From Apostichopus japonicus (taxonomy: Eukaryota > Echinodermata > Holothuroidea > Aspidochirotida > Stichopodidae), in the NCBI RefSeq assembly GCF_037975245.1, contig NC_092568.1, positions 868,001 to 932,000 on the forward strand: a DNA stretch of 64,000 nucleotides, in the 5' to 3' direction. A model generated the notes under the pieces. It saw only the letters and a list, made by a program, of their open reading frames with translations. It ran no database searches and was not told where the DNA came from. Made by a program: the position numbers and the translations under genes. Numbering within the stretch: the stretch's first letter is position 1; each line of letters starts with the position of its first letter. Shown here piece by piece: positions 9,850 through 61,907 of this stretch.

Positions 9850-11486
9850 CAGTGGCGTCGCCAAGGGGGGGCCAGGGGGGCACGTGCCCCCCCTGGAAAA
9901 CCTAGTGCCCCCCCGAGTGCCCCCCCCCATCTGAGATTTGGGTTGGTAAAAAAATATATATATATTTTGTTATATTCAACTCCCATCATCTGAGTTGGTT
10001 TTTCATAAGGACAAAGAAGCACAGTAATTCGTATTTTCTTCAAATGAGCTGCGAAAAAATGAAAAAGTTTATCCTTGAACGTCGGGTATCGAAGTCTTAA
10101 CCCGCGCCATCACAACAGGTGTCGATATTTACATTGAATGTGTCAGTGCTCACGCCATACCAGCGGATGTACACGTCCGCTTCGCGAGCTACATGACTGT
10201 GAGAAGGGAGGGTACTGCAATATGTTGCCTTGGTCTGAGGTTGACAGGTTAGGAGCTGACGAAATGTGAGAATGTGAGGGTCCGCAGGCACCATACTTGC
10301 CTACATTTGTGGACCCATATATTAACCCTGTTGTGTAGGGGGTGCAGAGGTCATTTGAGGTCAGATGCTTGTAGGAACAATGGCGAATGTTCACACCTGC
10401 ATACTGAGCCATACTCGATGTGTGATCAAACTTTGGATTGCATGGTGAGATCCCTGATAGGAGCCAATAACGATGCTGGAACCTGTTAAATCTTAATAGA
10501 TAATGGGCGAAAACGAGAAGGACAAGAAAGGAGTCGGGGGTCATGCACACATTAATTCAACAAATGTAGGTTCTATTGATATAGGGTTAGGCATAATATC
10601 GACAGCATGTGGTTCATATCCTCTGCAAAATTTTGCGCCTTGTTAAAATCATTACCTCAAAAATAGCAATTTCTGGAGATATCTTCAGATCGAATTTAGC
10701 ATCAAATGTGGCAGCATTTTGCATCTAGCCCATCCTCCGTATGTGAAAATTTTCCAAAGGGGAGGGGGGCAGTGGCCGCGGAACCGGGGGGGGGCTTGGG
10801 GGCTCACCCCCAATGAAAAAGTTGAGGGGGCACATGCATGATAAGCCCCCCCAATATTTACCCAGGCTCCGAAACGTGCATCTGCCCATTTTTCAATGCA
10901 TACTTGTCGATCTGTCCGATGCACACGTATACTATATAGGTGTAATAATTTTAGTAAATGCTGGGGGACCCTCGGCCAGTCCCCTGGCTATAGACCACAT
11001 AGGCCAATGACTTGCTTCATTTCAGCCAGTTCTCCAACATCCCCTTACTACACTCAAAAACGTCTTTGCGAGTACACTACGAGTAATAGCTACTCTCTTA
11101 AAACACCATCGAATATACAAATTACAATGTTTTAAAGACTTTTACGTGCAATCTGAGAAATTGCAGGCTTGAGACCCATATTTTAGGGCTAGGTATTCGC
11201 AGCATAAAACACTCGGGAAGTGCCGTTTCCGGCCATCTGGGGGTTTGAAAAACCCAAAATTTTCTTGTACGCTCCGCGCCAACCGATGGTGGCGCTCCGC
11301 TTAGATAGTCTCTATACATTAGCCCCACCCCCCAATAATTTTCCCGTTCCGCCGCGCCTGGAGGGGCACCCCCTCCCCTTAGACCCCTCCCCCAGGACGG
11401 CGATCCGTATCCACCTAAGTGCCCCCCATCAAATGCTGGTGCCCCCCTGTGCCCCCCCCAGACTGAAAAGTCTGGTGACGCCACTG
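9850..11486. mobile_element. hAT-like non-autonomous element with G/C-homopolymer arms
   Basis: The left end CAGTGGCGTCGCCA and the right end (reverse complement CAGTGGCGTCACCA) are inverted repeats. They are flanked by a perfect 8-bp duplication CCCCTCGG (9842-9849 and 11487-11494). Both arms contain strings of C7-C9 or G6-G9 interspersed with GTGC. The 1,637-bp interior holds a 135-codon minus-strand frame (10143-10550) with no recognisable transposase. A G-rich patch near 10760-10850 looks like a second, incomplete terminus (CAGTGGCCGCGGAACC), so this may be a composite. Confidence 0.78.
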
Positions 11487-11494
11487 CCCCTCGG

Positions 11495-12444
11495 GCATGC
11501 TAACAGAGATAATTATGATTTGTTGGTTGGACAAGTCTGTCGTAAGTAAAAAAAAAACAAGAGTTCGAAATTCTACCTTTCGATCTCCTTCAAGCAAGCA
11601 CCAATACGCTCTTCAATTTCCCTGCACTTTTTATCTCCTCTTCTGAAATTGGACACTCAGTCTCTTCGACCTCTTCACTGAGAGGGAGATACATGAATTA
11701 ACGAACAGAGGCCACAGAAATTCAACACATATGAGGTCAACCCTGACTTTAGTATAGAACCCTTTCTCTTTTCAGAAGTCTCTGGTGTCGAAGCTATTGT
11801 ATTTAGTTATGTGCGTCGGCCAGTAACCACTCGTGCAAATTTCATCCATCTTTCGGAAATCGGTAATAAGATGGTGAACCCGGTTATGCTTTATTTGAGT
11901 CTCATAATTTATCATTGATTGCCGTAAAAGTTAATTCGTAAAATCAATTTCATTAATAATTTGGTCATGTTCCTGACAACTGATTAGGCCACAGCTCGAG
12001 CAGTCATTTCTCCTGTAATTAACATGAGGCCTATTTCCACGACACGATTTAAAAATGACAGACATGAGTGTTCTCCTGAATAATAATGTAGAACAACTAA
12101 GCTTAGCCAAACTTCATTAGGACTACACAAAATACTTGAACAATATACTTATTTTATCTTGACAAGCACAATTTGTTAAGCTGTTGGATGTACACTTTAC
12201 AGGCCAGTACAGTTAGATACCATCCGATTGTAAGCCTTGGCTATGCCTAGTATTACTATTAGTAGTAGTACAAGTACTAGTACGTAGTACTACTAAGCTA
12301 GACGATGCCTATGCAATAGACTTACAACTACAACTTGTACAAGGCTTCAGTAGTCTATTGCTTGGCGGAGGGAAATGTAAAATAAAATACATAATCTAAC
12401 CTTAGCAATGTACATTTTAGCTTGATTCAGCATTAATAAAACGT
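11495..12444. other. Non-coding stretch
   Basis: Nothing coding recognised. A small palindromic patch of TAGTAC-type words lies at about 12255-12295. A 10-bp inverted pair (GCAATAGACT / AGTCTATTGC) occurs at about 12313 and 12351. Confidence 0.4.
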
Positions 12445-37895: not shown

Positions 37896-37981
37896 CATAA
37901 AAAAAACAAAATAAAATAAAACTGTTAGCAAACTGCTTATCCACTAGAGAGCCTGTGTAATAGAATGTGTAAAAGTAAGTT

Positions 37982-38021
37982 GGCCTGACGTTTCGATCCT
38001 AGCAGGATCTTCTTCAGAGGC
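37982..38021 (-). ncRNA. Hammerhead-ribozyme-like motif, left PLE 3' end
   Basis: Minus-strand copy of the motif, 3,250 bp from its partner in the same element. Confidence 0.7.
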
Positions 38022-38331
38022 TAAATGACAAGTTACAGTAACAGAGGGGACAAAAACACGCACAGAATACAGACAGGTTAATGAGCACGGTGAACACAAT
38101 GAGATGGATGAAAGGGGATTATAAGTAGAAAGCAACAGGAGAAGAGGAGAGGAAGGAGATAAACTGTGGAGGGACAAAGAGAGGATTAAAGGCACAGGGT
38201 AAGGAATAAACTGGAGAGGGACAAAGACAGAAAGGTGTGAAGAAAAATGGAGGGGAAGAGAGCTGTGAGAAGAAGAGTGAAAGGGGGGGGGGGAGGGAGA
38301 AAGGGGAGAAGGAGTAGGGAACAGAGGAAAG

Positions 38332-38829
38332 TTAGTCATGTCCTTCCTGAATGTTCAGCCCATGAGGTTGAATGGTACGAAGGCGTTGCATCCAGAGCCT
38401 CTCTCTGCTGATTCGTACTAGGTCAGGACGGCTACCTAAGGATTCAATCCCCTGTAGGGACATGTCGTTAATGGTATGGTTGGGAAGGTTAAAATGTTCT
38501 CCAACTGGGGTCTCAGTCTTCATGGTGTTGACTGTGGATCTGTGACCATAGAATCGCTTCTTGAGGGTGGTTTTGGTTTCGCCAACATACTGGATGCCGC
38601 AAACTCTACAAGAGATCAGATAGATGACATTGGTGGTAGTGCAAGTGATGTGACCCTTAGTCTTGTGTGTGAGTTGCATGCTGTGGCTGGTGATGGAGTT
38701 GGATTCAACAATGTGGTGGCTGCAGACGATGCATCTCGAAGTACGATCACATTTGAAGGTACCATGCTGAATGGGTGTGGGGTTAGAAGTTAGAGGTGGA
38801 ACAGCAGCACGTACAAGAAGGTCTCGTAG
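38332..38829 (-). CDS. PLE zinc-motif and GIY-YIG endonuclease region (left copy, out of frame with RT)
   Basis: Mirror of 43754-44251. Contains CDRTSRCIVCSHH (a Cys/His cluster typical of PLEs) and VIYLISCRVCGIQYVGETKT (GIY-YIG core). It continues with KKRFYGHRSTV (conserved Arg) and PVGEHFNLPNH (candidate catalytic Glu). In PLEs this domain nicks target DNA. Here it is separated from the RT by a -1 frame change, so the fusion is not readable as one frame. Confidence 0.88.
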   Translation of the reverse strand, partial: LRDLLVRAAVPPLTSNPTPIQHGTFKCDRTSRCIVCSHHIVESNSITSHSMQLTHKTKGHITCTTTNVIYLISCRVCGIQYVGETKTTLKKRFYGHRSTVNTMKTETPVGEHFNLPNHTINDMSLQGIESLGSRPDLVRISRERLWMQRLRTIQPHGLNIQEGHD

Positions 38830-41015
38830 GGTCGTCTGTAGGCGATGATGGGTTTTTCAGGGACGGCTCGTTGGAGTCTATCTGAAGTGAGGAGAATGTT
38901 GTGGTTGTTAGAGGTGATTTTCTGAAGGGGAGGAAGATTTGGGTGGAAAGTAACAACCAGGGGCAGCTTGTTGTCGCAATCTCGTCCCTTTTTGTCCTTC
39001 ACTGCCAAAGTAGATGATCTGGAAAGGGAGCGGACTCTCTGAATGGCTTCACGCACCCTTCTGGCACTATGGCCCCTGGCAATAAGGTGTTTTTCCAAAG
39101 CATCTGTATGGCGAATGAAAGAGGAATTGTTAGAGCAAATGCGACGAAGACGAAGTGCTTGACTGTAGGCAATTCCAGACTTGCAGTGACGGGGATGGCA
39201 GCTTGAAGAATGGAGATACTGGTGTGTGTCTGTGGGCTTGGTGTATAAGTCTGTAGAGAGAGAACCGTGTTCCTTGCGAACAGTCACATCGAGAAAGTTA
39301 ACCTGTTGGTGAGAGTAATCAGAGGTGAATTTGATGGTGCTGTGGAAAGAATTGATGTGATGGATGAAGGTGAGCAGGCTATCCTCATCACTGGTCCAAA
39401 TGAAGAAGATGTCATCAATGTAGCGCCACCAGATAAGGGGACGGCAGGGAGCCGTACTGAGCATGCGTTCTTCAAGGCTAGACATAAACAGACATGCAAA
39501 GGAAGGAGCCATCCTGGTTCCCATGGCAGTCCCGTGTCTTTGAAGGTAATGCTTGTCCATGAACGTGAAGTTGTTTTTGGTGAGAACCTGTTGCATGAGA
39601 GCTTTGATGTCAGAGATGGGTGGACAAGGGTGGACCTTCTTAGACAGGGCTGCACACGTGGCTGCGATACCTTCAGCATGAGGGATGTTAGTGTACAGAG
39701 AAGTGACGTCGAAAGTACCGATGATGGCTGTACTGGGGATTTGGTTTTTGATATCTTCAAGTTTCCTGAGGAAATCTGGAGTGTCATGGATATAAGAATT
39801 AATCTGAGGAACAAGAGGTTTGATGAAGTGGTCCACAAACAAGGATATCTTCTCGGTGGGGGACCCATTGCCCGAGATGATAGGCCTACCAGGGTTACCA
39901 GGCTTGTGAATTTTGGGCAGGAGATAAAACCTGGCTGCCTTACAGTCTGTGGGAGAAAGGAAAGAAAAAGCCTTCTTAGAGATCTGGTTCCGCTGGTACA
40001 TATCAGTGATGGTCTGTTTTATCTGCTGGGAGAAAATATCTGTGGGATCAGAATCAAGAAGAGTGTAAATATCACTGTTGGAGAGATGACGCATGGCTTC
40101 CTTGATGTAATCCTGTCGATCCTGGATGACAACTGCAGAACCTTTGTCGGCTGGCTTGATGATAATGTCACTGCGAGACATCAGTGAGGAGAGTGCTGTA
40201 CGCTCATCTCTTGGAAGGTTGTCGTGTGTTCTGCAGAGAGGAGAGTTTGACTGGTTAGTCTCAGAGCTGACGACCTGTGTGTAGGCTTCTAAAACAGGGA
40301 CTCTGTTCTTAGGAGGCATCCAAGAACTTTTCTTGCAGAAGGGTTCCCGTTCAGTTGGAGGATCATCTAGGAAAAACTCACGAAGGCGAATTCTGCGAAA
40401 GAAATGAGTAAGATCTTGACTCAGTTCCGCTTGGTCAAATGCTGGAGGAGTAGGACAGAAGTTGAGTCCTTTGGAGAGAAGCCTAAGGTCTGCACTGGTA
40501 AGAGTAGAAGAAGATAAGTTAACAACTGCAGTTGAGGATGGTGGTTCAGACTCAGGTGGAGTCTGGGGCCTTCTAAAACGGTTGCAAGCGGTACGTTTGC
40601 GTCTTTTCTGAAGGTCAGTCATTTTCTTATTTCTTCTTTCTGTGAGTTCAATGTTCTGCTGAGACAAACACAAGTTAATTTTGTTAGTGTACTGAGTCCA
40701 TTCGTCATCGGTGCAGCATGACTGTAATTCAAGCTTCAGCCTCAGGATATCATCGTTGAGGCTATCTAAGGACAATTGGCAGTGTTTGGTGAGGATGTTG
40801 ATGAGACGGATGGAGGTGCTGTGTAAGACTCGGTTCCACTCTCTCTGGAGTCCTGGAGGGAGTGTCCCTAGTGCTGGTTGGTGTGTAACCTGTAGACCTG
40901 AGGGAATAATGCGGGAGAGAGAGTAGAACCTGTAGTTGGAAAGATGGAAAGAATAGCGCTGGGATTTCTGCATCAATTTTCTGAGCTTCTGAAACAAAAG
41001 AAAATGGTGAGACAT
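38790..41015 (-). CDS. PLE reverse transcriptase ORF (left copy)
   Basis: 741 codons from the Met of MSHHFLLFQ. This start is preferred because it has a CACC Kozak context and the upstream 48 codons look like translated leader. Visible RT blocks in order: IIKPADKGSAVVI, FYLLPKIHKPG, GRPIISGNGSPTEKIS, FDVTSLYTNIPH (motif A), MGTRMAPSFACLFM (motif B), YIDDIFFIW (motif C, catalytic Asp pair) and VNFLDVTV. PLE reverse transcriptases are related to telomerase RT. The frame ends prematurely just after a REAIQRV and PIIAYRRP region, where the GIY-YIG part should continue in another frame. Only the Arg at FFRRIRLREF differs from the right copy. Confidence 0.92.
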   Translation of the reverse strand: MSHHFLLFQKLRKLMQKSQRYSFHLSNYRFYSLSRIIPSGLQVTHQPALGTLPPGLQREWNRVLHSTSIRLINILTKHCQLSLDSLNDDILRLKLELQSCCTDDEWTQYTNKINLCLSQQNIELTERRNKKMTDLQKRRKRTACNRFRRPQTPPESEPPSSTAVVNLSSSTLTSADLRLLSKGLNFCPTPPAFDQAELSQDLTHFFRRIRLREFFLDDPPTEREPFCKKSSWMPPKNRVPVLEAYTQVVSSETNQSNSPLCRTHDNLPRDERTALSSLMSRSDIIIKPADKGSAVVIQDRQDYIKEAMRHLSNSDIYTLLDSDPTDIFSQQIKQTITDMYQRNQISKKAFSFLSPTDCKAARFYLLPKIHKPGNPGRPIISGNGSPTEKISLFVDHFIKPLVPQINSYIHDTPDFLRKLEDIKNQIPSTAIIGTFDVTSLYTNIPHAEGIAATCAALSKKVHPCPPISDIKALMQQVLTKNNFTFMDKHYLQRHGTAMGTRMAPSFACLFMSSLEERMLSTAPCRPLIWWRYIDDIFFIWTSDEDSLLTFIHHINSFHSTIKFTSDYSHQQVNFLDVTVRKEHGSLSTDLYTKPTDTHQYLHSSSCHPRHCKSGIAYSQALRLRRICSNNSSFIRHTDALEKHLIARGHSARRVREAIQRVRSLSRSSTLAVKDKKGRDCDNKLPLVVTFHPNLPPLQKITSNNHNILLTSDRLQRAVPEKPIIAYRRPYETFLYVLLFHL

Positions 41016-41231
41016 GGTGAAAGCAGCGGGATGAGTAAATGATAAAAGTGAAATGAAAAACTGAAACACAAGAATACAAATACAAGTACAAATACAAAGT
41101 ACAAAGTAGATAAGGAGGATCACCCGAAGGGATACAGTAACAGAGCAGCTGAAAATCAAAATAAAATAAAACTGTTAGCAAACTGCTTATCCACTAGAGA
41201 GCCTGTGTAATAGAATGTGTAAAAGTAAGTT

Positions 41232-41270
41232 GGCCTGACGTTTCGATCCTAGCAGGATCTTCTTCAGAGG

Positions 41271-41271
<1 letters not shown>
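41232..41271 (-). ncRNA. Hammerhead-ribozyme-like motif, left PLE 5' end
   Basis: Minus-strand copy of the same 40-bp motif, separated from the right copy only by the poly(A) centre. The two could also pair with each other in a transcript crossing the centre. Confidence 0.7.

Positions 41272-41272
<1 letters not shown>

Positions 41273-41311
<39 letters not shown>
41273..41311. repeat. Poly(A) at the symmetry centre of the PLE dimer
   Basis: 39 uninterrupted A residues lie between the two 5' ends. The boundary A on each side may belong to the elements (AGCCTC). The origin is not obvious, because both adjacent ends are 5' ends. Confidence 0.9.
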
Positions 41312-41312
<1 letters not shown>

Positions 41313-41351
41313 CCTCTGAAGAAGATCCTGCTAGGATCGAAACGTCAGGCC
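41312..41351 (+). ncRNA. Hammerhead-ribozyme-like motif, right PLE 5' end
   Basis: Order of parts: stem I strand GCCT, core CTGAAGA, one extra A, stem II GATCC-TGCTA-GGATC, core GAAA, a minimal stem III made of AC/GT with no loop, the cleavage-type triplet GTC, then AGGC pairing with GCCT. Hammerheads with very short stem III are known in PLE pseudo-LTRs and are thought to act as dimers. The ACGT here is self-complementary and fits that. The extra A before stem II departs from the consensus, so activity is uncertain. Confidence 0.7.
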
Positions 41352-41567
41352 AACTTACTTTTACACATTCTATTACACAGGCTCTCTAGTGGATAAGCAG
41401 TTTGCTAACAGTTTTATTTTATTTTGATTTTCAGCTGCTCTGTTACTGTATCCCTTCGGGTGATCCTCCTTATCTACTTTGTACTTTGTATTTGTACTTG
41501 TATTTGTATTCTTGTGTTTCAGTTTTTCATTTCACTTTTATCATTTACTCATCCCGCTGCTTTCACC

Positions 41568-43793
41568 ATGTCTCACCATTTTCTTTTGTTTCAGAAGCTC
41601 AGAAAATTGATGCAGAAATCCCAGCGCTATTCTTTCCATCTTTCCAACTACAGGTTCTACTCTCTCTCCCGCATTATTCCCTCAGGTCTACAGGTTACAC
41701 ACCAACCAGCACTAGGGACACTCCCTCCAGGACTCCAGAGAGAGTGGAACCGAGTCTTACACAGCACCTCCATCCGTCTCATCAACATCCTCACCAAACA
41801 CTGCCAATTGTCCTTAGATAGCCTCAACGATGATATCCTGAGGCTGAAGCTTGAATTACAGTCATGCTGCACCGATGACGAATGGACTCAGTACACTAAC
41901 AAAATTAACTTGTGTTTGTCTCAGCAGAACATTGAACTCACAGAAAGAAGAAATAAGAAAATGACTGACCTTCAGAAAAGACGCAAACGTACCGCTTGCA
42001 ACCGTTTTAGAAGGCCCCAGACTCCACCTGAGTCTGAACCACCATCCTCAACTGCAGTTGTTAACTTATCTTCTTCTACTCTTACCAGTGCAGACCTTAG
42101 GCTTCTCTCCAAAGGACTCAACTTCTGTCCTACTCCTCCAGCATTTGACCAAGCGGAACTGAGTCAAGATCTTACTCATTTCTTTCGCAGAATTCACCTT
42201 CGTGAGTTTTTCCTAGATGATCCTCCAACTGAACGGGAACCCTTCTGCAAGAAAAGTTCTTGGATGCCTCCTAAGAACAGAGTCCCTGTTTTAGAAGCCT
42301 ACACACAGGTCGTCAGCTCTGAGACTAACCAGTCAAACTCTCCTCTCTGCAGAACACACGACAACCTTCCAAGAGATGAGCGTACAGCACTCTCCTCACT
42401 GATGTCTCGCAGTGACATTATCATCAAGCCAGCCGACAAAGGTTCTGCAGTTGTCATCCAGGATCGACAGGATTACATCAAGGAAGCCATGCGTCATCTC
42501 TCCAACAGTGATATTTACACTCTTCTTGATTCTGATCCCACAGATATTTTCTCCCAGCAGATAAAACAGACCATCACTGATATGTACCAGCGGAACCAGA
42601 TCTCTAAGAAGGCTTTTTCTTTCCTTTCTCCCACAGACTGTAAGGCAGCCAGGTTTTATCTCCTGCCCAAAATTCACAAGCCTGGTAACCCTGGTAGGCC
42701 TATCATCTCGGGCAATGGGTCCCCCACCGAGAAGATATCCTTGTTTGTGGACCACTTCATCAAACCTCTTGTTCCTCAGATTAATTCTTATATCCATGAC
42801 ACTCCAGATTTCCTCAGGAAACTTGAAGATATCAAAAACCAAATCCCCAGTACAGCCATCATCGGTACTTTCGACGTCACTTCTCTGTACACTAACATCC
42901 CTCATGCTGAAGGTATCGCAGCCACGTGTGCAGCCCTGTCTAAGAAGGTCCACCCTTGTCCACCCATCTCTGACATCAAAGCTCTCATGCAACAGGTTCT
43001 CACCAAAAACAACTTCACGTTCATGGACAAGCATTACCTTCAAAGACACGGGACTGCCATGGGAACCAGGATGGCTCCTTCCTTTGCATGTCTGTTTATG
43101 TCTAGCCTTGAAGAACGCATGCTCAGTACGGCTCCCTGCCGTCCCCTTATCTGGTGGCGCTACATTGATGACATCTTCTTCATTTGGACCAGTGATGAGG
43201 ATAGCCTGCTCACCTTCATCCATCACATCAATTCTTTCCACAGCACCATCAAATTCACCTCTGATTACTCTCACCAACAGGTTAACTTTCTCGATGTGAC
43301 TGTTCGCAAGGAACACGGTTCTCTCTCTACAGACTTATACACCAAGCCCACAGACACACACCAGTATCTCCATTCTTCAAGCTGCCATCCCCGTCACTGC
43401 AAGTCTGGAATTGCCTACAGTCAAGCACTTCGTCTTCGTCGCATTTGCTCTAACAATTCCTCTTTCATTCGCCATACAGATGCTTTGGAAAAACACCTTA
43501 TTGCCAGGGGCCATAGTGCCAGAAGGGTGCGTGAAGCCATTCAGAGAGTCCGCTCCCTTTCCAGATCATCTACTTTGGCAGTGAAGGACAAAAAGGGACG
43601 AGATTGCGACAACAAGCTGCCCCTGGTTGTTACTTTCCACCCAAATCTTCCTCCCCTTCAGAAAATCACCTCTAACAACCACAACATTCTCCTCACTTCA
43701 GATAGACTCCAACGAGCCGTCCCTGAAAAACCCATCATCGCCTACAGACGACCCTACGAGACCTTCTTGTACGTGCTGCTGTTCCACCTCTAA
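41568..43793 (+). CDS. PLE reverse transcriptase ORF (right copy)
   Basis: Identical in layout to the left copy, with all RT motifs intact (FDVTSLYTNIPH, YIDDIFFIW). The only difference seen is His in FFRRIHLREF, encoded by CAC at 42195-42197 against CGC in the other copy: a G-to-A change at a CpG. The frame stops at 43791-43793, about 13 codons after crossing into the wrong phase near 43752-43754. Confidence 0.92.
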   Translation: MSHHFLLFQKLRKLMQKSQRYSFHLSNYRFYSLSRIIPSGLQVTHQPALGTLPPGLQREWNRVLHSTSIRLINILTKHCQLSLDSLNDDILRLKLELQSCCTDDEWTQYTNKINLCLSQQNIELTERRNKKMTDLQKRRKRTACNRFRRPQTPPESEPPSSTAVVNLSSSTLTSADLRLLSKGLNFCPTPPAFDQAELSQDLTHFFRRIHLREFFLDDPPTEREPFCKKSSWMPPKNRVPVLEAYTQVVSSETNQSNSPLCRTHDNLPRDERTALSSLMSRSDIIIKPADKGSAVVIQDRQDYIKEAMRHLSNSDIYTLLDSDPTDIFSQQIKQTITDMYQRNQISKKAFSFLSPTDCKAARFYLLPKIHKPGNPGRPIISGNGSPTEKISLFVDHFIKPLVPQINSYIHDTPDFLRKLEDIKNQIPSTAIIGTFDVTSLYTNIPHAEGIAATCAALSKKVHPCPPISDIKALMQQVLTKNNFTFMDKHYLQRHGTAMGTRMAPSFACLFMSSLEERMLSTAPCRPLIWWRYIDDIFFIWTSDEDSLLTFIHHINSFHSTIKFTSDYSHQQVNFLDVTVRKEHGSLSTDLYTKPTDTHQYLHSSSCHPRHCKSGIAYSQALRLRRICSNNSSFIRHTDALEKHLIARGHSARRVREAIQRVRSLSRSSTLAVKDKKGRDCDNKLPLVVTFHPNLPPLQKITSNNHNILLTSDRLQRAVPEKPIIAYRRPYETFLYVLLFHL

Positions 43794-44251
43794 CTTCTAA
43801 CCCCACACCCATTCAGCATGGTACCTTCAAATGTGATCGTACTTCGAGATGCATCGTCTGCAGCCACCACATTGTTGAATCCAACTCCATCACCAGCCAC
43901 AGCATGCAACTCACACACAAGACTAAGGGTCACATCACTTGCACTACCACCAATGTCATCTATCTGATCTCTTGTAGAGTTTGCGGCATCCAGTATGTTG
44001 GCGAAACCAAAACCACCCTCAAGAAGCGATTCTATGGTCACAGATCCACAGTCAACACCATGAAGACTGAGACCCCAGTTGGAGAACATTTTAACCTTCC
44101 CAACCATACCATTAACGACATGTCCCTACAGGGGATTGAATCCTTAGGTAGCCGTCCTGACCTAGTACGAATCAGCAGAGAGAGGCTCTGGATGCAACGC
44201 CTTCGTACCATTCAACCTCATGGGCTGAACATTCAGGAAGGACATGACTAA
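43754..44251 (+). CDS. PLE zinc-motif and GIY-YIG endonuclease region (right copy, out of frame with RT)
   Basis: The frame reads LRDLLVRAAVPPL from 43754, overlapping the end of the RT frame, then HGTFKCDRTSRC and the GIY-YIG core, to a stop at 44249-44251. LRDLLVRA is the usual PLE linker, so one base appears to be missing at about 43750-43754. No slippery heptamer is apparent. The first ATG in this frame is at 43904, after the zinc motif, so independent translation would give only the nuclease domain. Confidence 0.88.
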   Translation, partial: LRDLLVRAAVPPLTSNPTPIQHGTFKCDRTSRCIVCSHHIVESNSITSHSMQLTHKTKGHITCTTTNVIYLISCRVCGIQYVGETKTTLKKRFYGHRSTVNTMKTETPVGEHFNLPNHTINDMSLQGIESLGSRPDLVRISRERLWMQRLRTIQPHGLNIQEGHD

Positions 44252-44561
44252 CTTTCCTCTGTTCCCTACTCCTTCTCCCCTTTCTCCCTCCCCCCCCCCC
44301 TTTCACTCTTCTTCTCACAGCTCTCTTCCCCTCCATTTTTCTTCACACCTTTCTGTCTTTGTCCCTCTCCAGTTTATTCCTTACCCTGTGCCTTTAATCC
44401 TCTCTTTGTCCCTCCACAGTTTATCTCCTTCCTCTCCTCTTCTCCTGTTGCTTTCTACTTATAATCCCCTTTCATCCATCTCATTGTGTTCACCGTGCTC
44501 ATTAACCTGTCTGTATTCTGTGCGTGTTTTTGTCCCCTCTGTTACTGTAACTTGTCATTTA

Positions 44562-44601
44562 GCCTCTGAAGAAGATCCTGCTAGGATCGAAACGTCAGGC
44601 C
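44562..44601 (+). ncRNA. Hammerhead-ribozyme-like motif, right PLE 3' end
   Basis: Identical 40-bp copy of the 41312 motif, 3,250 bp downstream. Cleavage at both would release a unit-length 3,250-nt RNA. Confidence 0.7.
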
Positions 44602-44629
44602 AACTTACTTTTACACATAAAAAAAACAA

Positions 44630-50748: not shown

Positions 50749-50929
50749 GCGATTTTTACCGGTGTGAAGTTAGATACTTATTCCCCGTTCCTCGTTCGAT
50801 ATTCGCGAATGAGTAACTGCTACCGATTCAGTTACGTATTCGACAATGGTATCGACGTAACACCTCTGGCAAGACAAAAGCTTTCTTACAAGATGTTCAA
50901 CATATGGTCGTGGAAAGAGGTTTATCTAT

Positions 50930-53890
50930 GGCCCATGGGTCATATGAACTCTAATAACTATGTAGAAGGGTACCATAATGCATCTTGCCCGGTCCAAATA
51001 GTTTTTGACCAACTAAAATGACCAGTACTTCATCAGCTCTTAAATTAATGTAAAAAATTACTTTAGGCCCTAATCAAGACTAGCACGCCTTGGACCACCT
51101 TACCAATGGGTCATATGAATTCTTAACACATTGTAGAAGGATACCATAATGCGTCTTGCCCGGTCCAAAGAGTGCTTGACCAATTAAAATGACCATTAAA
51201 TCAACTTTTTTTTTAAATAAATGTAACGGGAACTGAAATAAAAACATTTGGGCCCTAATCAAATCCAGCACGCCTTGGACCGCCCAACCAATGGGTCATG
51301 GGAAGTCTGAGGACATTGTAGAAGAGTACCATAATGCGTCTTGCCCGATCCAAAGCGTGCTTGACCAATTAAACTGACCATTAAAGCATTACTTCATCAT
51401 CGAGTGTAACCGGACCACGAAAAAGCTTTGGGCCCTAATCCATGCAGCACGCTTTGGACCACCAAACCGATGGTTAACATGAACTCTAAGGACATTGTAG
51501 AAGAGTACCATAATGCGTCTTGCCCGGTCCAAAGCGTGCTTGACCAATTAAACTGACCATGAAATCATTACTTCATCATCGAGTGTAACGGGACCATGAA
51601 AAAGCTTTGGGCCCTAATCCATGCAGCACGCTTTGGACCACCAAACCGATGGTTAACATGAACTCTAAGGACATTGTAGAAGAGTACCATAATACGTCTT
51701 GCCCGGTCCAAAGCGTGCTTGACTAATTAAACTGACCATGAAATCATTACTTCATCATCGAGTGTAACGGGACCACGAAAAAGCTTTGGGCCCTAATCCA
51801 TGCAGCACGCTTTGGACCACCAAACCGATGGTTAACATGAACTCTAAGGACATTGTAGAAGAGTACCGTAATGCGTCTTGCCCGGTCCAAAGCGTGCTTG
51901 ACCAATTAAACTGACCATGAAATCATTACTTAATCATCGAGTGTAACGGGACCACGAAAAAGCTTTGGGCCCTAATCCATGCAGCACGCTTTGGACCACC
52001 AAACCGATGGTTAACATGAACTCTAAGGACATTGTAGAAGAGTACCATAATGCGTCTTGCCCGGTCCAAAGCGTGCTTGACCAATTAAACTGACCATGAA
52101 ATCATTACTTAATCATCGAGTGTAACGGGACCACGAAAAAGCTTTGGGCCCTAATCCATGCAGCACGCTTTGGACCACCAAACCGATGGTTAACATGAAC
52201 TCTAAGGACATTGCAGAAGAGTACCATAATGCGTCTTGCCCGGTCCAAAGCGTGCTTGACCAATTAAACTGACCATGAAATCATTACTTCATCATCGAGT
52301 GTAACGGGACCACGAAAAAGCTTTGGGCCCTAATCCATGCAGCACGCTTTGGACCACCAAACCGATGGTTAACATGAACTCTAAGGACATTGTAGAAGAG
52401 TACCATAATGTGTCTTGCCCGGTCCAAAGCGTGCTTGACCAATTAAACTGACCATGAAATCATTACTTCATCATCGAGTGTAACGGGACCACGAAAAAGC
52501 TTTGGGCCCTAATCCATGCAGCACGCTTTGGACCACCAAACCGATGGTTAACATGAACTCTAAGGACATTGTAGAAGAGTACCGTAATGCGTCTTGCCCG
52601 GTCCAAAGCGTGCTTGACCAATTAAACTGACCATGAAATCATTACTTAATCATCGAGTGTAACGGGACCACGAAAAAGCTTTGGGCCCTAATCCATGCAG
52701 CACGCTTTGGACCACCAAACCGATGGTTAACATGAACTCTAAGGACATTGTAGAAGAGTACCATAATGTGTCTTGCCCGGTCCAAAGCGTGCTTGACCAA
52801 TTAAACTGACCATGAAATCATTACTTCATCATCGAGTGTAACGGGACCACGAAAAAGCTTTGGGCCCTAATCCATGCAGCACGCTTTGGACCACCAAACC
52901 GATGGTTAACATGAACTCTAAGGACATTGTAGAAGAGTACCGTAATGCGTCTTGCCCGGTCCAAAGCGTGCTTGACCAATTAAACTGACCATGAAATCAT
53001 TACTTAATCATCGAGTGTAACGGGACCACGAAAAAGCTTTGGGCCCTAATCCATGCAGCACGCTTTGGACCACCAAACCGATGGTTAACATGAACTCTAA
53101 GGACATTGTAGAAGAGTACCATAATGCGTCTTGCCCGGTCCAAAGCGTGCTTGACCAATTAAACTGACCATGAAATCATTACTTAATCATCGAGTGTAAC
53201 GGGACCACGAAAAAGCTTTGGGCCCTAATCCATGCAGCACGCTTTGGACCACCAAACCGATGGTTAACATGAACTCTAAGGACATTGTAGAAGAGTACCA
53301 TAATGCGTCTTGCCCGGTCCAAAGCGTGCTTGACCAATTAAACTGACCATGAAATCATTACTTCATCATCGAGTGTAACGGGACCACGAAAAAGCTTTGG
53401 GCCCTAATCCATGCAGCACGCTTTGGACCACCAAACCGATGGTTAACATGAACTCTAAGGACATTGTAGAAGAGTACCATAATGCGTCTTGCCCGGTCCA
53501 AAGCGTGCTTGACCAATTAAACTGACCATGAAATCATTACTTCATCATCGAGTGTAACGGGACCACGAAAAAGCTTTGGGCCCTAATCCATGCAGCACGC
53601 TTTGGACCACCAAACCGATGGTTAACATGAACTCTAAGGACATTGTAGAAGAGTACCATAATGCGTCTTGCCCGGTCCAAAGCGTGCTTGACCAATTAAA
53701 CTGACCATGAAATCATTACTTCATCATCGAGTGTAACGGGACCACGAAAAAGCTTTGGGCCCTAATCCATGCAGCACGCTTTGGACCACCAAACCGATGG
53801 TTAACATGAACTCTAAGGACATTGTAGAAGAGTACCGTAATGCGTCTTACCCGGTCCAAATAGTATTTGACCAATACAAACGACTAATGC
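50930..53890 (+). repeat. Left arm: 16-unit array of a 179-bp satellite
   Basis: The marker CCCTAATC recurs at 51068, 51253, 51433 and 51612, then every 179 bp to 53760. The two outermost spacings are 185 and 180 and those units are more diverged; the inner ones differ by only a few bases. Every full unit carries AGCACGCTTTGGACC and, 65 bp later, its reverse complement GGTCCAAAGCGTGCT. Confidence 0.96.
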
Positions 53891-54868
53891 ACAATCATTA
53901 TCCAGTAGATTCATCAATATCTTCTTTTTTGAATTTCAACTCTACGTCTGTACCAGTGTGGTGATACAAAACAAAAGCAACACCTTTGGCTCGCAAGTTT
54001 AATGCTTATTGGTGCTTTACAATCATCAGCATACAAAGTTTCCTTCCCATTCCGGAGAAACACACGCGCACTCTTCTTTTTTTTTTGGGGGGGGGGGGGA
54101 GGGCCTTAGCGCAACTACATTTTCAGAATGAAGTGATTTCTGTAGACTGGCAACGAACTGAAAACGTTGTTGTTTTAATTATTCGTTTATAGAACTTAAT
54201 TTTATTTCTTTTATTCATTTCACCCGTCAACCCTTCACATATTTACAGATTTAAAGAACAAAGAAGTGTTCTTGCCTCTCTTCATGAAAGTGGTTTTGAA
54301 CGCTTTAACCCCCTTCGTAGATTCTGAAAGATTCCACTGCTACATTCTAGAGCTGACCATCGAGCTATAAACAGACAATCAGTCATCTCGGGTCAAGCGG
54401 AGATAAACTGACTTTAATAGTTTATTGAGCAAAATAGTCTTCAAGTGAAATAGGTCTACCCAGACATATATTTTATGCCGAAATCCCTTTCTGATTTATT
54501 TATGATCTCCATTAGCCATAGTTGGTAATGAACCATCCAAGTTACCCTATAGTGCCATTCTATGCATTTTGATTTTATCGTGTTCCCATGCATGTGCTTG
54601 TTCTTTCTCTTAGCGATTTTTCAATAGAAAGTTTCTCTTGGAGTGTAGAAGGCAGATCCACCATAAGAAGTCTCACTGGGTTTATTCCAACTAAACATAG
54701 ACCAGAGTTAGTGTGATTTTATAGTTGATTTCCTTTCATTCAGTTCTACCTAATTATTAATTATAACGTCCATAATCTAGCCAGGGACGTCGCTAGAGGG
54801 GGGTGTGGGGTGTCTCATCCCCCCCCCCCCCAAATCTTGGTAAAACTGACGAAAGTTGGAAAAATTTT

Positions 54869-54899
54869 GTGCGACAGTCGGAATTTCCGACTGTCGCAC
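54869..54899. repeat. 31-bp palindrome
   Basis: GTGCGACAGTCGGAA, one central T, then the exact reverse complement. It lies 90 bp inside the nested MITE; a partial copy (TTCCGACTGGCGCACTCGAA) follows at once. Confidence 0.85.
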
Positions 54900-55284
54900 T
54901 CGAATTTTTCCGACTGGCGCACTCGAATTTTCAAATATTCTTGTAGTGACCTAAAACTTTCGGTCAAAATTGACCTTGAATCAGTCATATTTGCTACGAT
55001 TTCCTTGTCACAATGAGAAATTGTATGTCGCGATCTTTATACTCCACCATACAAAACTTCGTATGATTTTGAATACTCTAAAAAAAATGCCTAATAGAAC
55101 TTCTGCACAACATATACTATTAAAACGCGCAATGCTAATCTACGGAAGCTTAAAAATGCCATCAACATAAGAAAAACTTTGCCCCATAAGGTGAAATTTT
55201 TCTGTAAATTGTTTAGATAACAAGATAAAATGTTATCAAAAAACAGAAAAATGTTGCATTGCTTACTTGCTTTAAATGAGTAAT

Positions 55285-55620
55285 TGAACAATTTTGTGAA
55301 AAATGTTTAATTGAAAACTAATCAAATCTTGTCAATTAGTCATTTTTTGTTGCAAAATGTTCATTTGTTTACTTCATTCCATAAGAACAATTGAAAAACT
55401 TTTCTGCGAAATGTTTAATTGACAACTTATCTTATCTCGTCAATTGGACATTTTTGGCAAAATGTTCAATTGTTCACTTCATTCCAACTGAGCAATTGAA
55501 AAAATTTCTGCAAAATGTTTAATTGACAACTTATCGTATAACGTCAACTCAACATTTTTCTGCAAAATGTTTAATTGTTCACATCATTCCAAATGCTCAG
55601 TTGGAATGAAGTGAACAATG
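55285..55620. repeat. ~105-bp tandem repeat, about three units
   Basis: Each unit contains AAATGTTTAATTGACAACTT, a GTCAATT word and CAAAATGTTCAATTGTTCAC followed by TTCATTCCAA. The array ends in an inverted copy TTGGAATGAAGTGAACAATG. Confidence 0.75.
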
Positions 55621-56986
55621 TTTTCTTTATTCATGTGAGTGATAAATAGCCCCACCCCCACCCCCAAGAAAATAATATTAAGCCCGCTAGGAAAAAGCAC
55701 TGTATTTTTGGGTAATTCACTATGTCGTCGAATATAATTTTCGAAAAAAAGTTTCCCCTTTGTTACATTAACATAGCTTTTTTAGTCAGTAGTCTATGTA
55801 GCTTATCAAGCAGATAACTTGTACTCAGTTGCTTACTCGCTTAACCAGAGTGATTGATAAGTTTGTAAAGTGAGGGCCAGTGGTACAAATGTACCGAGAA
55901 AAGTTTGGAACAAAAGTGCAGTCGCGAAAGATAGGGTGTCTGACTGACACTGACCGTATCGCTGACGAGTATAGTGCGGGGGGGGGGGGGTACAAGGCAG
56001 CAGTCGGCATTTTCTGGCTCCAAAACCCATCCAGTTGGAATTTCAGCCACTAAACCCCCAATCATCATGCATTAGCTACGTCCCTGTATCTAGCTATACA
56101 AATTTTACACAATACACAAAACACATTCAATCCATTAGCAAAAGTGCTAGATTTAAGGTCAATTTCGCGTTTGTTAATTTAAGTCAAAAATACACTTTCT
56201 AATCACTTACAATTGTATTTAATGTATTAATTCTTCGGTAAATATCAATTAGGCTATATGCTGAGTCAATTATGGAAGTATAGAAGTCAAGAGAAATATT
56301 ACATGCTTAATATCCACCCCCCCCCCACCCCTCCCCATTTATTCTCTGATTGGATTGAAATGTACTTGCAGAAGAAAAATTTTCATGCCAAATTACTTTA
56401 ATCTGGTAGAATTGATACACTTTTACCAATCTATGTGCAAAGATGTTCCATACACTATTACTCAATACTTCATAAGATAAATTTGAAGGAGCGGAATAAA
56501 GGACCATGCGTTCTGATTGTAATTGAATGATTCATTCAGGATGTTTCCTAGAAGTTTTCTCTCGTTAAAGAGCGCTTGAACATTAGGCTCGAACTAATTG
56601 ATACCGATGTACGAGCTGACTGCCTACCGTCATTTAACGTCCATGGAATACCTTTAAAGGCTGAGAGTTCATATTTATCACAGCGTGATTGCTCCCTTGC
56701 GTCGAACCATTAAAATTGATAGATAACTGAAATAATCTGCAGCATGTTGACAGTTTAACTGCTTTTTTGCATTTGTATTCCCAAATGAATGAAATATCGG
56801 AATATCTTTCCTTCAACGAATGTCTCTGACCCACGTTAGGAGAGTTAAAGTGATATTGTTCAATGTTTGAACGTTACTGCATGTACCATTAATTCATGGT
56901 ACTTGGTAGGCCTATATAGGGGATGGTTTATTTCTTTGATTGTTTCTCCGGCTGTAAGCTTCCTAAGCTTCATTGGGCTATCATGA

Positions 56987-57052
56987 CAGTGCAAGCCTGC
57001 TACAAGCCTGCTACAGCCTTGCTACGGCCTTGCTACGGCCTTGCTACAGCCA
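56987..57052. repeat. 11-bp minisatellite
   Basis: Five to six units of GCCTGCTACAA or GCCTTGCTACG type in tandem. Confidence 0.8.
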
Positions 57053-57389
57053 TAGAAAGATGCTGTCGCTTTATGCCATCGTGTTCAAATATCTGCCACA
57101 TTGCAATTTTTCCCTTTTGATTAGGCTGAAATTTCGTAAGTGATTTGAGTAAGTTAAAGTGTTATATGCTAACATATCGATGAATTCGGAAGTCATTTAG
57201 AGGCTTTTTTAAATTGTAAAAACTTTCCGACAGAATTTGGCCATGTATATAGACATTCTGCCATTAATTGGAATGCACTTAAAACGAGTTCTCTCTTTTT
57301 CATTCCTTGAGGGTCCAAAGTGCAATTTGTAATGCTACCGGTTGACACTAAACGCACGATACATAACATATGAGATGGACACTCATTTA

Positions 57390-60000
57390 AGAAGTGATGA
57401 TGTAGTGGTCATTTAAATTGGTCAAGCACACTTTGGACCTGGCAAGACGTATTATGGTACTCTTCTACACTGTCTTAAAAAATCATATGACCCATCGGTT
57501 AGGTGGTCCAAGGCGTTGTGGTCTGGATTAGGGCCCAAAGCTTTTTCGTGGTTCCTTTTCACTCATTAAAGAAGCAATGATTTAGTGGTCATTTAAATTG
57601 GTCAAGCACGCTTTGGACCGGGCAAGACGCATTATGGTACCCTTCTACAATGTCCTTAGAGTTCATGTTAACCATCGGTTTGGTGGTCCAAAGCGTGCTG
57701 CATGGATTAGGGCCCAAAGCTATTTCGTGGTCCGGTTACACTCGATGATGAAGTAATGATTTCATGGTCAGTTTAATTGGTCAAGCACGCTTTGGACCGG
57801 GCAAGACGCATTATGGTACTCTTCTACAATGTCCTTAGAGTTCATGTTAACCATCGGTTTGGTGGTCCAAAGCGTGCTGCATGGATTAGGACCCAAAGCT
57901 TTTTCGTGGTCCCGTTACACTCGATGATGAAGTAATGATTTCATGGTCAGTTTAATTGGTCAAGCACGCTTTGGACCGGGCAAGACGCATTATGGTACTC
58001 TTCTACAATGTCCTTAGAGTTCATGTTAACCATCGGTTTGGTGGTCCAAAGCGTGCTGCATGGATTAGGTCCCAAAGCTTTTTCGTGGTCCCGTTACACT
58101 CGATGATGAAGTATATAATGATTTAATGGTCAGTTTAATTGGTCAAGCACGCTTTGGACCGGGCAAGACGCATGATGGTACTCTTCTACAATGTCCTTAG
58201 AGTTCATGTTAACCATCGGTTTGGTGGTCCAAAGCGTGCTGCATGGATTAGGGCCCAAAGCTTTTTCGTGGTCCCGTTACACTCGATGATGAAGTATATA
58301 ATGATTTAATGGTCAGTTTAATTGGTCAAGCACGCTTTGGACCGGGCAAGACGCATTATGGTACTCTTTTACAAAGTCCTTAGAGTACATGTTACCCATT
58401 GGTTAGGTGGTCCAAAGCGTGCTGCATGGATTAGGGCCCAAAGCTTTTTCATGGTCCAATTACACTCATTAAAGAAGTAATGATTTAGTGGTCATTTAAA
58501 TTGGTCAAGCACGCTTTGGACCGGGCAAGACGCATTACGGTACTCTTCTACAATGTCCTTAGAGTTCATGTTAACCATCGGTTTGGTGGTCCAAAGCGTG
58601 CTGCATGGATTAGGGCCCAAAGCTTTTTCGTGGTCCCGTTACACTCGATGATGAAGTAATGATTTAATGGTCAGTTTAATTGGTCAAGCACGCTTTGGAC
58701 CGGGCAAGACGCATTATGGTACTCTTCTACAATGTCCTTAGAGTTCATGTTAACCATCGGTTTGGTGGTCCAAAGCGTGCTGCATGGATTAGGGCCCAAA
58801 GCTTTTTCGTGGTCCGGTTACACTCGATAATGAAGTATATAATGATTTCATGGTCAGTTTAATTGGTCAAGCACGCTTTGGACCGGGCAAGACGCATTAT
58901 GGTACTCTTCTACAATGTCCTTAGAGTTCATGTTAACCATCGGTTTGGTGGTCCAAAGCGTGCTGCATGGATTAGGGCCCAAAGCTTTTTCGTGGTCCCG
59001 TTACACTCGATGATGAAGTAATGATTTAATGGTCAGTTTAATTGGTCAAGCACGCTTTGGACCGGGCAAGACGCATTATGGTACTCTTCTACAATGTCCT
59101 TAGAGTTCATGTTAACCATCGGTTTGGTGGTCCAAAGCGTGCTGCATGGATTAGGGCCCAAAGCTTTTTCGTGGTCCGGTTACACTCGATGATGAAGTAA
59201 TGATTTAATGGTCAGTTTAATTGGTCAAGCACGCTTTGGACCGGGCAAGACGCATTATGGTACTCTTTTACAAAGTCCTTAGAGTACATGTTACCCATTG
59301 GTTAGGTGGTCCAAAGCGTGCTGCATGGATTAGGGCCCAAAGCTTTTTCATGGTCCAATTACACTCATTAAAGAAGTAATGATTTAGTGGTCATTTAAAT
59401 TGGTCAAGCACGCTTTGGACCGGGCAAGACGCATTACGGTACTCTTCTACAATGTCCTTAGAGTACATGTTACCCATTGGTTAGGTGGTCCAAGGCGTGC
59501 TGCATGGATTAGGGCCCAAAGCTTTTTCGTGGTCCCGTTACACTCATTGAAGAAGTAATGATTTAATGGTCATTTAAATTGGTCAAGCACGCTTTGGACC
59601 GGGCAAGACGCATTATGTTACCCTTCTACAAGGTCCTCAGACTTCCCATGACCCATTGGTTGGGCGGTCCAAGGCGTGCTGGATTTGATTAGGGCCCAAA
59701 TGTTTTTATTTCAGTTCCCGTTACATTTATTTTAAAAAAATGTTGATTTAATGGTCATTTTAATTGGTCAAGCACTCTTTGGACCGGGCAAGACGCATTA
59801 TGGTATCCTTCTACAATGTGTCAAGAATTCATATGACCCATTGGTAAGGTGGTCCAAGGCGTGCTAGTCTTGATTAGGGCCTAAAGTAATTTTTTTACAT
59901 TAATTTAAGAGCTGATGAAGTACTGGTCATTTTAGTTGGTCAAAAACTATTTGGACCGGGCAAGATGCATTATGGTACCCTTCTACATAGTCATCGGAGT
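57390..60000 (-). repeat. Right arm: 14-unit array of the same satellite, inverted
   Basis: The complementary marker GGATTA recurs from 57525 to about 59871 with spacings of 179 or 183 bp, then 180 and 185 at the outer edge. The 183-bp units carry an extra TATA in GAAGTATATAATG. The outer units mirror the diverged outer units of the left arm. Confidence 0.95.
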
Positions 60001-60201
60001 TCATATGACCCATGGGCCATAGATAAACCTCTTTCCACGACCAAATGTTGAACATCTTGTAAGAAAACTTTTGTCTTGCCAGAGGTGTTACGTCGATACC
60101 ATTGTCGAATACGTAACCGAATAGGCAGCTCAGTTACTCATTCGCGAATATCGAACGAGGAACGGGGAATAAGTATCTAACTTCACACCGGTGCGATTTT
60201 T

Positions 60202-61907
60202 TTCCTTGCTGAACCAGAGTAACCAAAATTGAGCACATAAAACAGCTATCAAATAGTATGCTGGATGGAATCCAAATATCTCTAATCGAAACGATGGCAA
60301 TATACAGAAACCTCGTACTTGTTACATAAACCCACGCATGGATTATTCTTCTACGGTAAGACAGTCCCTGGCAGTACTTGCTTATTTTTTAGGTTTACAA
60401 TGGTCGCAGATCACTGGAGGCAAAGTGCACCTCGTTTACACTCTTTGACAAGTCACGAGTTTTCAAAACTTGTTAAAAAAGACTGTTGAGCAGGCAGAAC
60501 CACGGTAGAAAATCATTTGTAATTATATTTTGCAATAGATAATGAAATGCATGAAGCTACTTAAACAATACCAAATACCAAATGTTTGATAATATCTAAA
60601 CTGTGTCTCGGAGAGTGTGGCGGACAAGAAAGAAAAAACATGGCGTAGCCAAAGTATATATCTGAATGACACTAACAACTTGCTTTATAGTTCAAGAGAT
60701 ACGCACGACTGATCTGGGAAATTGCTTTTAGCATTGGGGGAATGTTCTAACTGGCGGGAAGTTTGCAGAACAGAATATTTCACATGCTAATCTGTGGAAA
60801 AGCATACCTATGTATACGGCTCTGAAACGGAAGCAATTCTAGCGCACTCACTTTCTTTGTAACTTTCCTGCAGTGAGTAAAGTGAAAGCATTCGGTTACA
60901 AGGAACTCACCGTGTCAGAATTATTCACGTCAATCATAAAGATATATTTACTGATTTATTTTTCGGCAAAAGGTATTCGGATTCCTGGAACATGTCCAGT
61001 GTTTTGTTAGCTGTTTTGTTACTCTGTGAAGAGTAATGAGTTTTTAAGCTCATACTCGACAGTTTTGTTCGTTTATCGTTGCCATGGACCAGTTGTTGAG
61101 AACTTACCTATGGGGAGAAAAGGCAAGGTCCCACAGTACAAAATATAGGGTAACTGTGCGAGTATACGACTTGACGCTTACGACGTACGAGGATAGGAAA
61201 AGACCACTGTTAAATCCCTGGTCACTTTGTAAGCATCAACTTACCAACTCAAACTGTTGGCATCATTTGTCTTGATAAAGTTTGGATTTCAGGGGGAAGT
61301 CAAAAAATGTGTTTGAGGCCGCCCTCACTTCACAAAAGTGAAATGAATGCATTTGTCCACACCCCAATGCCCCGCCCCCACCTTAACCCATTCACTCCCA
61401 CCTAACCAAACCCCAATTCTCACCTCACTCCCACCTTGAGCTGCATCTTCAATACCTATCATCTGGTTCTACTATATCGAACAAAGACATTAAATGCACA
61501 TACAAACTTTTAGACTTAAGAACATAGCAGCACATTCAAGAAAACAACAGGCAAAACCATTTCATATTTTACATAATATATCTGTATTTAAAGCTTTTCA
61601 AAGAAGTTTACATCAAGTAAAACCTGGAAAAATACATCTTTTGATAATGAACAACCTAACAACAAAAACATCTTGAAGAATGAATAACATTTGATAAAAG
61701 AAAAAAAAATTAATGTTAAATATTTGTACTTTTCTCTTGTCATGCAAGGTCACACCCTAACACATGCACACAAAAATAACCTAAACATTGATAGTTAGAT
61801 ACAAGAAATACAAATCATTTAAATATTTGACATGCTCAATCTAATTACAATCCAAGAATTCTGACTGCAGAAATAGCAATAATTAAACCAAGCTAACAGC
61901 ATTAGTG
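60202..61907. other. Non-coding stretch
   Basis: Right flank of the foldback element. Short open frames only; a C-rich patch lies at 61360-61440. No gene recognised. Confidence 0.45.

Follow-up and report, generated by a model that had tools for sequence, protein, structure and literature searches.

The DNA analyzed here, a stretch of 64,000 nucleotides from Apostichopus japonicus (the window), contains two arrays of a 179-bp unit in opposite orientation. The question is whether these are unrelated satellite blocks or the arms of one transposed unit. A complete element of 9,435 bp was delimited at positions 50758-60192. It is bounded by GCGATTTTT/GCGATTTTT and its ends read ACCGGTGTGAAG...CTTCACACCGGT; the span 50749-60201 given in a first-pass annotation is this element plus both 9-bp GCGATTTTT copies. 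The parts of the locus, including the two boxes of the target address discussed below, are as follows.

50758..60192, no strand assigned: complete non-autonomous foldback element, 9,435 bp
50749..50757, plus strand: left target-site duplication (TSD), GCGATTTTT
60193..60201, plus strand: right TSD, GCGATTTTT
50758..50931, plus strand: left terminal domain (tip), unique part, with the palindrome ACCGGT at its start
50932..53875, plus strand: left 179-bp array of partial unit 0, distinct units 1 and 2 and a homogenized core; 17 nhmmer unit matches
53885..57390, no strand assigned: interior of about 3.5 kb, coding domain not found
57391..60016, minus strand: right 179-bp array, inverted; 15 nhmmer unit matches
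60017..60192, minus strand: right terminal domain (tip), unique part
60219..60224, minus strand: target-address box 2 of the window insertion, GGTTAC reading towards the element, with GG at −32 from the element edge
60245..60248, minus strand: target-address box 1 of the window insertion, TAGC

TRF assigned a period of 179 bp to both arrays, with 15.7 copies and 96% matches on the left (51061-53875) and 13.8 copies and 92% matches on the right (57391-59886). The longest ungapped inverted pair comprises 1,056 nt at 96%, which makes it likely that the DNA would snap back on denaturation and reannealing. The outermost 62 bp of the left and right arms are identical, and the window contains exactly two occurrences of a 25-bp terminus, for which 0 are expected by chance. 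A minor 105/52-bp tandem repeat is located inside the interior at 55274-55595.

A genome search with a 55-bp terminus yielded 166 matches with up to 3 mismatches, 100 of them listed, and the control yielded 0. In all, 35 left/right tip pairs were read, 24 of which carried a perfect TSD (23 of 9 bp and one of 10 bp), while a TSD was absent in the other 11. Among 1,190 combinations of mismatched partners, 6 agreed to within one base; since pairs with a common target sequence exist, this control was not inflated in favor of the claim. The window element is one copy of a high-copy foldback family. Its long inverted arms of tandem repeats surround a middle region, and the target duplications of the 24 pairs indicate movement as a unit. 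Both arrays are located within the duplicated target and their order recurs in other copies. The single transposed unit, the foldback form and the further copies with 9-bp duplications proposed in the first-pass annotation were all confirmed. The interior of the window element differed by 1.1 to 1.5% from seven of eight other near-complete interiors and by 4.5% from the remaining one.

Evaluation of the origin of the arms needs to consider the distribution of the 179-bp unit in the genome and its variation along the array. The unit matched 1,272 times, with nearly equal numbers on the two strands (640/632). Among the 100 matches listed, 97 were no more than 10 kb from a terminus, the other 3 were solitary and no free-standing array was present. 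Across 24 arms of 12 copies, units 0, 1 and 2 from the tip were 0.96, 0.98 and 0.92 alike, respectively, but had a likeness of just 0.79, 0.81 and 0.86 to the core, and unit 3 was already at the core level of 0.915. The outermost units are conserved by position and the core is homogenized. Array length varied even between three copies with interiors only 0.2 to 0.6% apart, which possessed 12+23, 18+16 and 20+14 units and showed block duplications. The graded divergence of the units fits growth within the element, and the arrays seem to have grown there; unequal exchange and block duplication may lengthen and shorten them. That the arms are instead captured pre-existing satellite DNA, or that an element came to lie between two unrelated satellite blocks, would agree with the satellite-like length and homogeneity of the 179-bp unit. 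This is very improbable, given the enclosure of both arrays by the duplicated target, the same order in other copies, the balanced strands, the proximity of the listed units to tips and an outermost unit that is part of the conserved tip region. The seeding or capture of satellite DNA suggested earlier is unsupported by the 100 units listed and by the gradient. Long arrays are also difficult to assemble, and collapsed or falsely inverted repeats might imitate such a structure. An artefact of this kind is hardly credible, because many loci show the same arrangement with different TSDs and HiFi reads underlie the assembly, if it is the one described in PMC10344927.

The 62 identical base pairs had been taken as a sign of a recent insertion or homogenization. 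They do not date the insertion because other copies carry them too. Identity between the two tips of an element averaged 0.896, compared to 0.893 between tips of different elements, the nearest relative of a tip was its own partner in just 3 of 32 cases, and each of the two window tips is closer to tips elsewhere than to the other; dating by tip identity was therefore rejected. Four tip variants are common to different copies at 99% identity, and a fifth group consists of both tips of one element. Two of the four variants adjoin one end of the interior in some copies and the opposite end in others. This demonstrates that arms aligned in inverted orientation were exchanged, whether inside one element or from one element to another, and the inverted arms may isomerize by crossing over.

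With respect to its mechanism, the element is most likely a non-autonomous, cut-and-paste, foldback-type DNA transposon of the Mutator/Rehavkus superfamily, an assignment for which TSD length and arm structure are the sole basis as far as MULE membership is concerned. Mutator/MULE elements including Rehavkus have TSDs of 8 to 10 bp (Rehavkus 9 bp), in line with the 23 pairs of 9 bp and the one of 10 bp, albeit with 11 pairs without TSD, and they possess long TIRs, often with subterminal repeats, as do the arms here. The element would be moved in trans by a transposase encoded elsewhere, which may bind the tips and perhaps the arrays too. No recognizable coding domain and no MULE domain was found in the interior (53885..57390), and no transposase inside any copy read, 16 as a whole and two more in part. 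In six variant copies, frames of at least 90 aa looked non-coding as judged by eye. The genome contains 38 PF10551 hits, all of them outside the 35 tip-to-tip intervals. The hits at C16:45449706 and C11:10789890 lie roughly 12 kb on the inner side of unpaired tips, are only 23% identical to each other and have different Pfam neighbors; no arm or interior homology was present in the 3 kb around the hit at C16:45449706. Among the 35 pairs, the two of greatest length were sampled as candidates for an autonomous copy, and both were rejected. C15:5692748-5709563 is without a TSD, contains an LTR-retrotransposon gag-pol-like frame (by eye) and was taken as a nested insertion, and C15:13932872-13946152 is another copy of the element that carries an insert and lacks a long frame. 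A larger autonomous copy with a MULE-type transposase, which the first-pass annotation suggested looking for, was not found within this scope.

The missing MULE domain in the interior and in the 35 intervals would also suit a transposase from outside the MULE superfamily, for instance P/Galileo-like or Merlin-like, with a foldback form of independent origin, and Galileo is indeed described as a P-superfamily transposon with foldback-like arms (PMC4168063). This alternative is doubtful: of the 24 TSDs, 23 measure 9 bp and one measures 10 bp, compared to 7 to 8 bp for Galileo (PMC4168063) and 6 to 7 bp for Dada (PMC3706591), whereas Rehavkus and several MULE groups are described as having 9 bp (PMC6446971).

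The flanks of the insertions contained a one-sided, bipartite address of about TTTAGCA ... TTGGTNAC, with the GG 31 to 33 bp from the element edge. Of 19 independent insertions, 13 had it on one flank, none had it on both flanks and 6 had it on neither, lacking GGYNA at the expected place; the controls had a mean of 0.67 and a maximum of 2. A held-out ranking placed the address first in 13 of 19. One repeat was common to the flanks of 10 tips and another to those of 8. The flanks of 6 tips contained the end of a dispersed repeat, and three further tips were 0.1 to 0.8 kb from a copy of this dispersed repeat, not at the fixed distance. Groupings at identity thresholds similar to those of the over-merged clustering described below sorted 35 motif-bearing flanks into 22 clusters and 24 insertions into 14. 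An address derived from the element itself was rejected: the motif is absent at the mirrored distance in the element's own ends, and the sole element hit with a score of at least 10 is in the interior. A TFIIIC-type promoter with tRNA/snRNA targeting was considered, as box 1 resembles an A box, but was rejected because the spacing does not suit such a promoter and because 18 loci yielded neither a tRNA nor an Rfam family above its gathering score.

These data show that a two-part motif is overrepresented on one side of the insertions, at a constant distance from them. On balance, we favor the interpretation that this animal cut-and-paste family locates its targets through a DNA address that is asymmetric and recognized from some way off, a two-part site spanning about 32 bp and restricted to one flank, with a 9-bp staggered cut about 17 bp beyond in arbitrary sequence. 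The motif on one flank may be held by a partner protein or by a part of the transposase that reads sequence, and the machinery holding it would place the cut about 17 bp further on. Such a mode of target choice would resemble that of Tn7. The motif could result instead from insertion beside the ends of other repeats, from open chromatin or from duplication of old insertions with their flanks, which we consider unlikely. Some flanks are repeats or, at 6 tips, contain the end of a repeat, as noted above, and most of the signal was lost (6 of 49 clusters) under an identity clustering that was over-merged, with 43 of 106 flanks in one cluster. In the BLAST clustering that replaced it, however, the motif was at −33/−32 in 21 of 75 clusters compared to 0.40 per offset elsewhere, and flanks read after the motif had been noticed contained it in 9 of 35 cases compared to 0.55. 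The sequence from the repeat end to the cut differs at all six sites, which indicates independent choices of one address. Moreover, chromatin would not fix a position to about 1 bp, and no RNA gene was found in the 18 loci.

The first-pass annotation regarded the units of known foldback elements as far shorter, which does not agree with Tetris of Drosophila virilis, with its TIR-220 repeats of about 220 bp and TSDs of 8 to 10 bp (PMC4079207), or with Rehavkus-1_TC of Tribolium castaneum, an element of 9.5 kb whose inverted termini contain a 164-bp satellite (PMC10218199). Its overall interpretation stands for the transposed unit, the foldback form and the further copies, but not for unit-length novelty, recency, seeding or capture, and the MULE autonomous copy. 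Likened by description, Rehavkus-1_TC shares with the window element the size of about 9.5 kb, the nucleosome-length satellite and short arrays tied to the element (PMC10218199), and Rehavkus the 9-bp TSD; it differs by a PHD-finger transposase (PMC6446971), with none found in the 16 copies read as a whole and two in part here. Tetris, again by description, is a non-autonomous foldback element with an outer flanking domain, a unit array and a non-coding middle. It resembles this family in its TSDs, in a flanking-domain stretch similar to the unit and in allelic changes of unit number that parallel the variation in array length (PMC4079207). A role of foldback elements in making satellite DNA has already been claimed for Tetris, which has 3 structurally complete copies compared to 24 TSD-bearing pairs here, and TIR-220 also occurs in arrays of up to 66 copies, none of which were seen among the 100 units listed of 1,272 (PMC4079207). 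The description of Tetris drawn on here contains no target address (PMC4079207), in contrast to the one-sided motif of this family.

Muta1 and the type 2 foldback MULEs of Aedes aegypti share TSDs of 8 to 9 bp, a terminal palindromic motif, subterminal tandem repeats and numerous non-autonomous relatives with this family but have 12-bp repeats, and Muta1 reinserted in yeast without apparent sequence preference (PMC5225508). In Dada, one target side is likewise more conserved, but the TSD is 6 to 7 bp, the targets are snRNA or tRNA genes and the motif is common to its own subterminal repeats (PMC3706591). Galileo is foldback-like and structurally dynamic, with tandem repeats in the arms of one copy, yet belongs to the P superfamily and has a 15-bp palindromic target motif that includes its TSD (PMC4168063).

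The satellite-array build is known from insects, and it is the apparent choice of landing sites by an address about 23 bp to one side that is new here. A nucleosome-length satellite as inverted transposon end is now present in a beetle (164 bp), a fly (about 220 bp) and this genome (179 bp), and by this recurrence transposon arms look like repeated birthplaces of satellite-like arrays, with the stages legible within one genome as fixed outer units, homogenized core and inverted arm exchange. In the Drosophila TIR elements surveyed, the target motif is palindromic and extends across the duplication; if the one-sided, distant address is real, the machinery would possess a separable sequence-reading part, unlike the symmetric target capture of those elements. 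Once confirmed, this would mean that an animal DNA transposon reads a separate landing signal, and its insertion sites would be predictable.

The element of the window is enclosed by two 9-bp target copies, GCGATTTTT. From the outside, each arm starts with a unique tip of about 175 bp, which is followed by a partial unit, by two units of distinctive sequence and finally by a core array of 179-bp repeats; an interior of 3.5 kb lies between the two arms. The window copy also carries, in its right flank, the two boxes of a target address:

50758-60192, foldback element, starting with ACCGGTGTGAAG and finishing with the reverse complement of ACCGGTGTGAAG
60224-60219, minus strand, right flank, address box 2, GGTTAC
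60248-60245, minus strand, right flank, address box 1, TAGC

No stop-to-stop frame that overlaps the element exceeded 114 aa. When the interior was scanned in six frames against Pfam, nothing scored above cut-off, the one weak match (E 0.078) being below its own cut-off.

The genome searched comprised 671,581,487 bases in 35 contigs, with the window at C8:868001-932000. The 55-bp terminus had 74 forward and 92 reverse matches with up to 3 mismatches, and its reversed-sequence control had none. A total of 115 distinct tips were read with their flanks, which gave 35 pairs and left 45 tips single. Perfect target-site duplications (TSDs) of 9 bp were found in 23 of these pairs and of 10 bp in 1, with none in the other 11; the first-pass annotation had suggested looking for further copies with 9-bp duplications, and these pairs show that there are many. 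The 24 TSD-bearing copies were 3.1 to 13.3 kb long. The interior was common, at least partly, to 13 of the 15 other copies read whole, and near-complete interiors differed from that of the window copy by 1.1 to 1.5% in seven of eight cases and by 4.5% in the eighth. The window element and its relatives are a real, non-autonomous foldback family, which has probably been active recently, because some interiors are just 0.2% apart. A recent insertion or homogenisation had also been read from the identical 62-bp termini. This reading was not supported: among 32 tips, the mean identity of left tips was 0.896 to their own right tip vs. 0.893 to tips elsewhere, so that tip identity gives no date for the window insertion.

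Elements were also located beside or within the ends of other family copies (C8:39674100-39687022, loci L054 and L055; C16:5142569-5157830). Eight single tips on contigs C1, C3, C5 and C14 had a nearly identical flank, as would be seen if a different repeat had incorporated a tip and spread with it. At locus L059 (C15:5696000-5705999), the tip-to-tip interval contained an LTR-retrotransposon gag-pol-like reading frame, presumably a nested insertion.

The unit search by nhmmer gave 421 matches in 16 elements. Across 24 arms belonging to 12 copies, units 0, 1 and 2, counted from the tip, were 0.959, 0.978 and 0.922 identical to their positional counterparts but only 0.787, 0.813 and 0.859 to the core; units from 3 inward were at core level, and the two innermost diverged again (0.874 and 0.828). 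This gradient is the pattern that would be expected if exchange homogenises the middle of the array. Units of the window copy were 0.973 identical within an arm, 0.961 between its own arms and 0.920 to other elements, which means that both arms were homogenised together, an effect weaker or absent in the other copies. Of all 277 full units, 96 had their nearest relative within their own arm, 24 in the opposite arm and 157 in a different element. Unit numbers were 12+23, 18+16 and 20+14 in three copies whose interiors are 0.2 to 0.6% apart. Four tip variants were common to different copies; two of them adjoined the 5' end of the interior in some copies and the 3' end in others, the left tip of the window copy belonging to the variants found at either end. 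This shows that inverted arms have exchanged, within one element or between elements. The unit pattern had 1,272 genome matches, of which the 16 copies analysed account for 283. Among the 100 matches listed, 97 were at most 10 kb from a tip, so that, within this listing, satellite and element are one and the same.

Two further repeats were observed in the window. A Penelope-like element with reverse transcriptase and GIY-YIG domains forms an inverted repeat at 37965-44618, with arms of 3,308 nt that are 100% complementary and a 38-nt poly-A spacer between them. A frame at 11122-11499 (minus strand) resembles by eye one within a short variant copy (L047, C3:7952187), indicating another repeat common to both. 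On contig C17, about 11 to 26 Mb, 13 of the 38 MULE-domain genome matches were located, some with open frames of >480 aa.

When the flanks were aligned on the element edge, with the TSD at -9 to -1, GGTNAC appeared exactly at -32. Among 106 flanks in 75 BLAST clusters, GGYNA was present at -32 in 15 clusters and at -33 in 6, compared to a mean of 0.40 and a maximum of 2 at other offsets; its reverse complement reached 2 at most near those offsets. In 19 independent insertions drawn from the 24 TSD-bearing ones, GGYNA occurred at -33 to -31 in exactly one flank in 13 cases and in both flanks in none, while 6 insertions lacked it on either side; the mean at control offsets was 0.67 and the maximum 2. 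The other box of the address, TNGC, had its start 23 to 25 bp upstream of the GG in 12 instances among the 22 clusters that contain GGYNA, vs. 0.38 per offset at other spacings. With a leave-one-out matrix, 13 of the 19 insertions scored higher at the true offset than at any of 21 controls, 0.86 being expected by chance; with coarser clusters and 48 controls, 11 of 14 did so. Clusters made solely of flanks read after the motif had been noticed contained the motif in 9 of 35 cases (control triplets, 0.55, at most 2).

Evaluation of the address needs to consider two observations that count against it. Identity clustering left the motif in only 6 of 49 clusters, because 43 of the 106 flanks were merged into one. 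Six tips were near a repeat end, and the sequence from repeat end to cut was different in all six, so that the address alone is common to them; however, three more tips were 0.1 to 0.8 kb from copies of the same repeat end, without fixed spacing.

Far longer arm units than in known foldback elements had been put forward as a novelty, but this architecture is already described for Tetris (units of about 220 bp) and Rehavkus-1_TC (164 bp), next to the 179 bp of the window family. In surveys of Drosophila TIR and LTR families, target motifs are described as palindromes reaching beyond the TSD (PMC3276498, PMC4168063), whereas the address of the window family is one-sided. Muta1, a MULE, is described with no apparent sequence preference (PMC5225508), and Dada is the nearest precedent found for a one-sided target at a fixed distance (PMC3706591). 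The literature search, with subscription journals mostly outside its coverage, returned no account of this foldback family, nor of any MULE or foldback element with an address of this kind. The satellite-armed form is one more example of a kind already known, and it is the one-sided address that sets this family apart as new.
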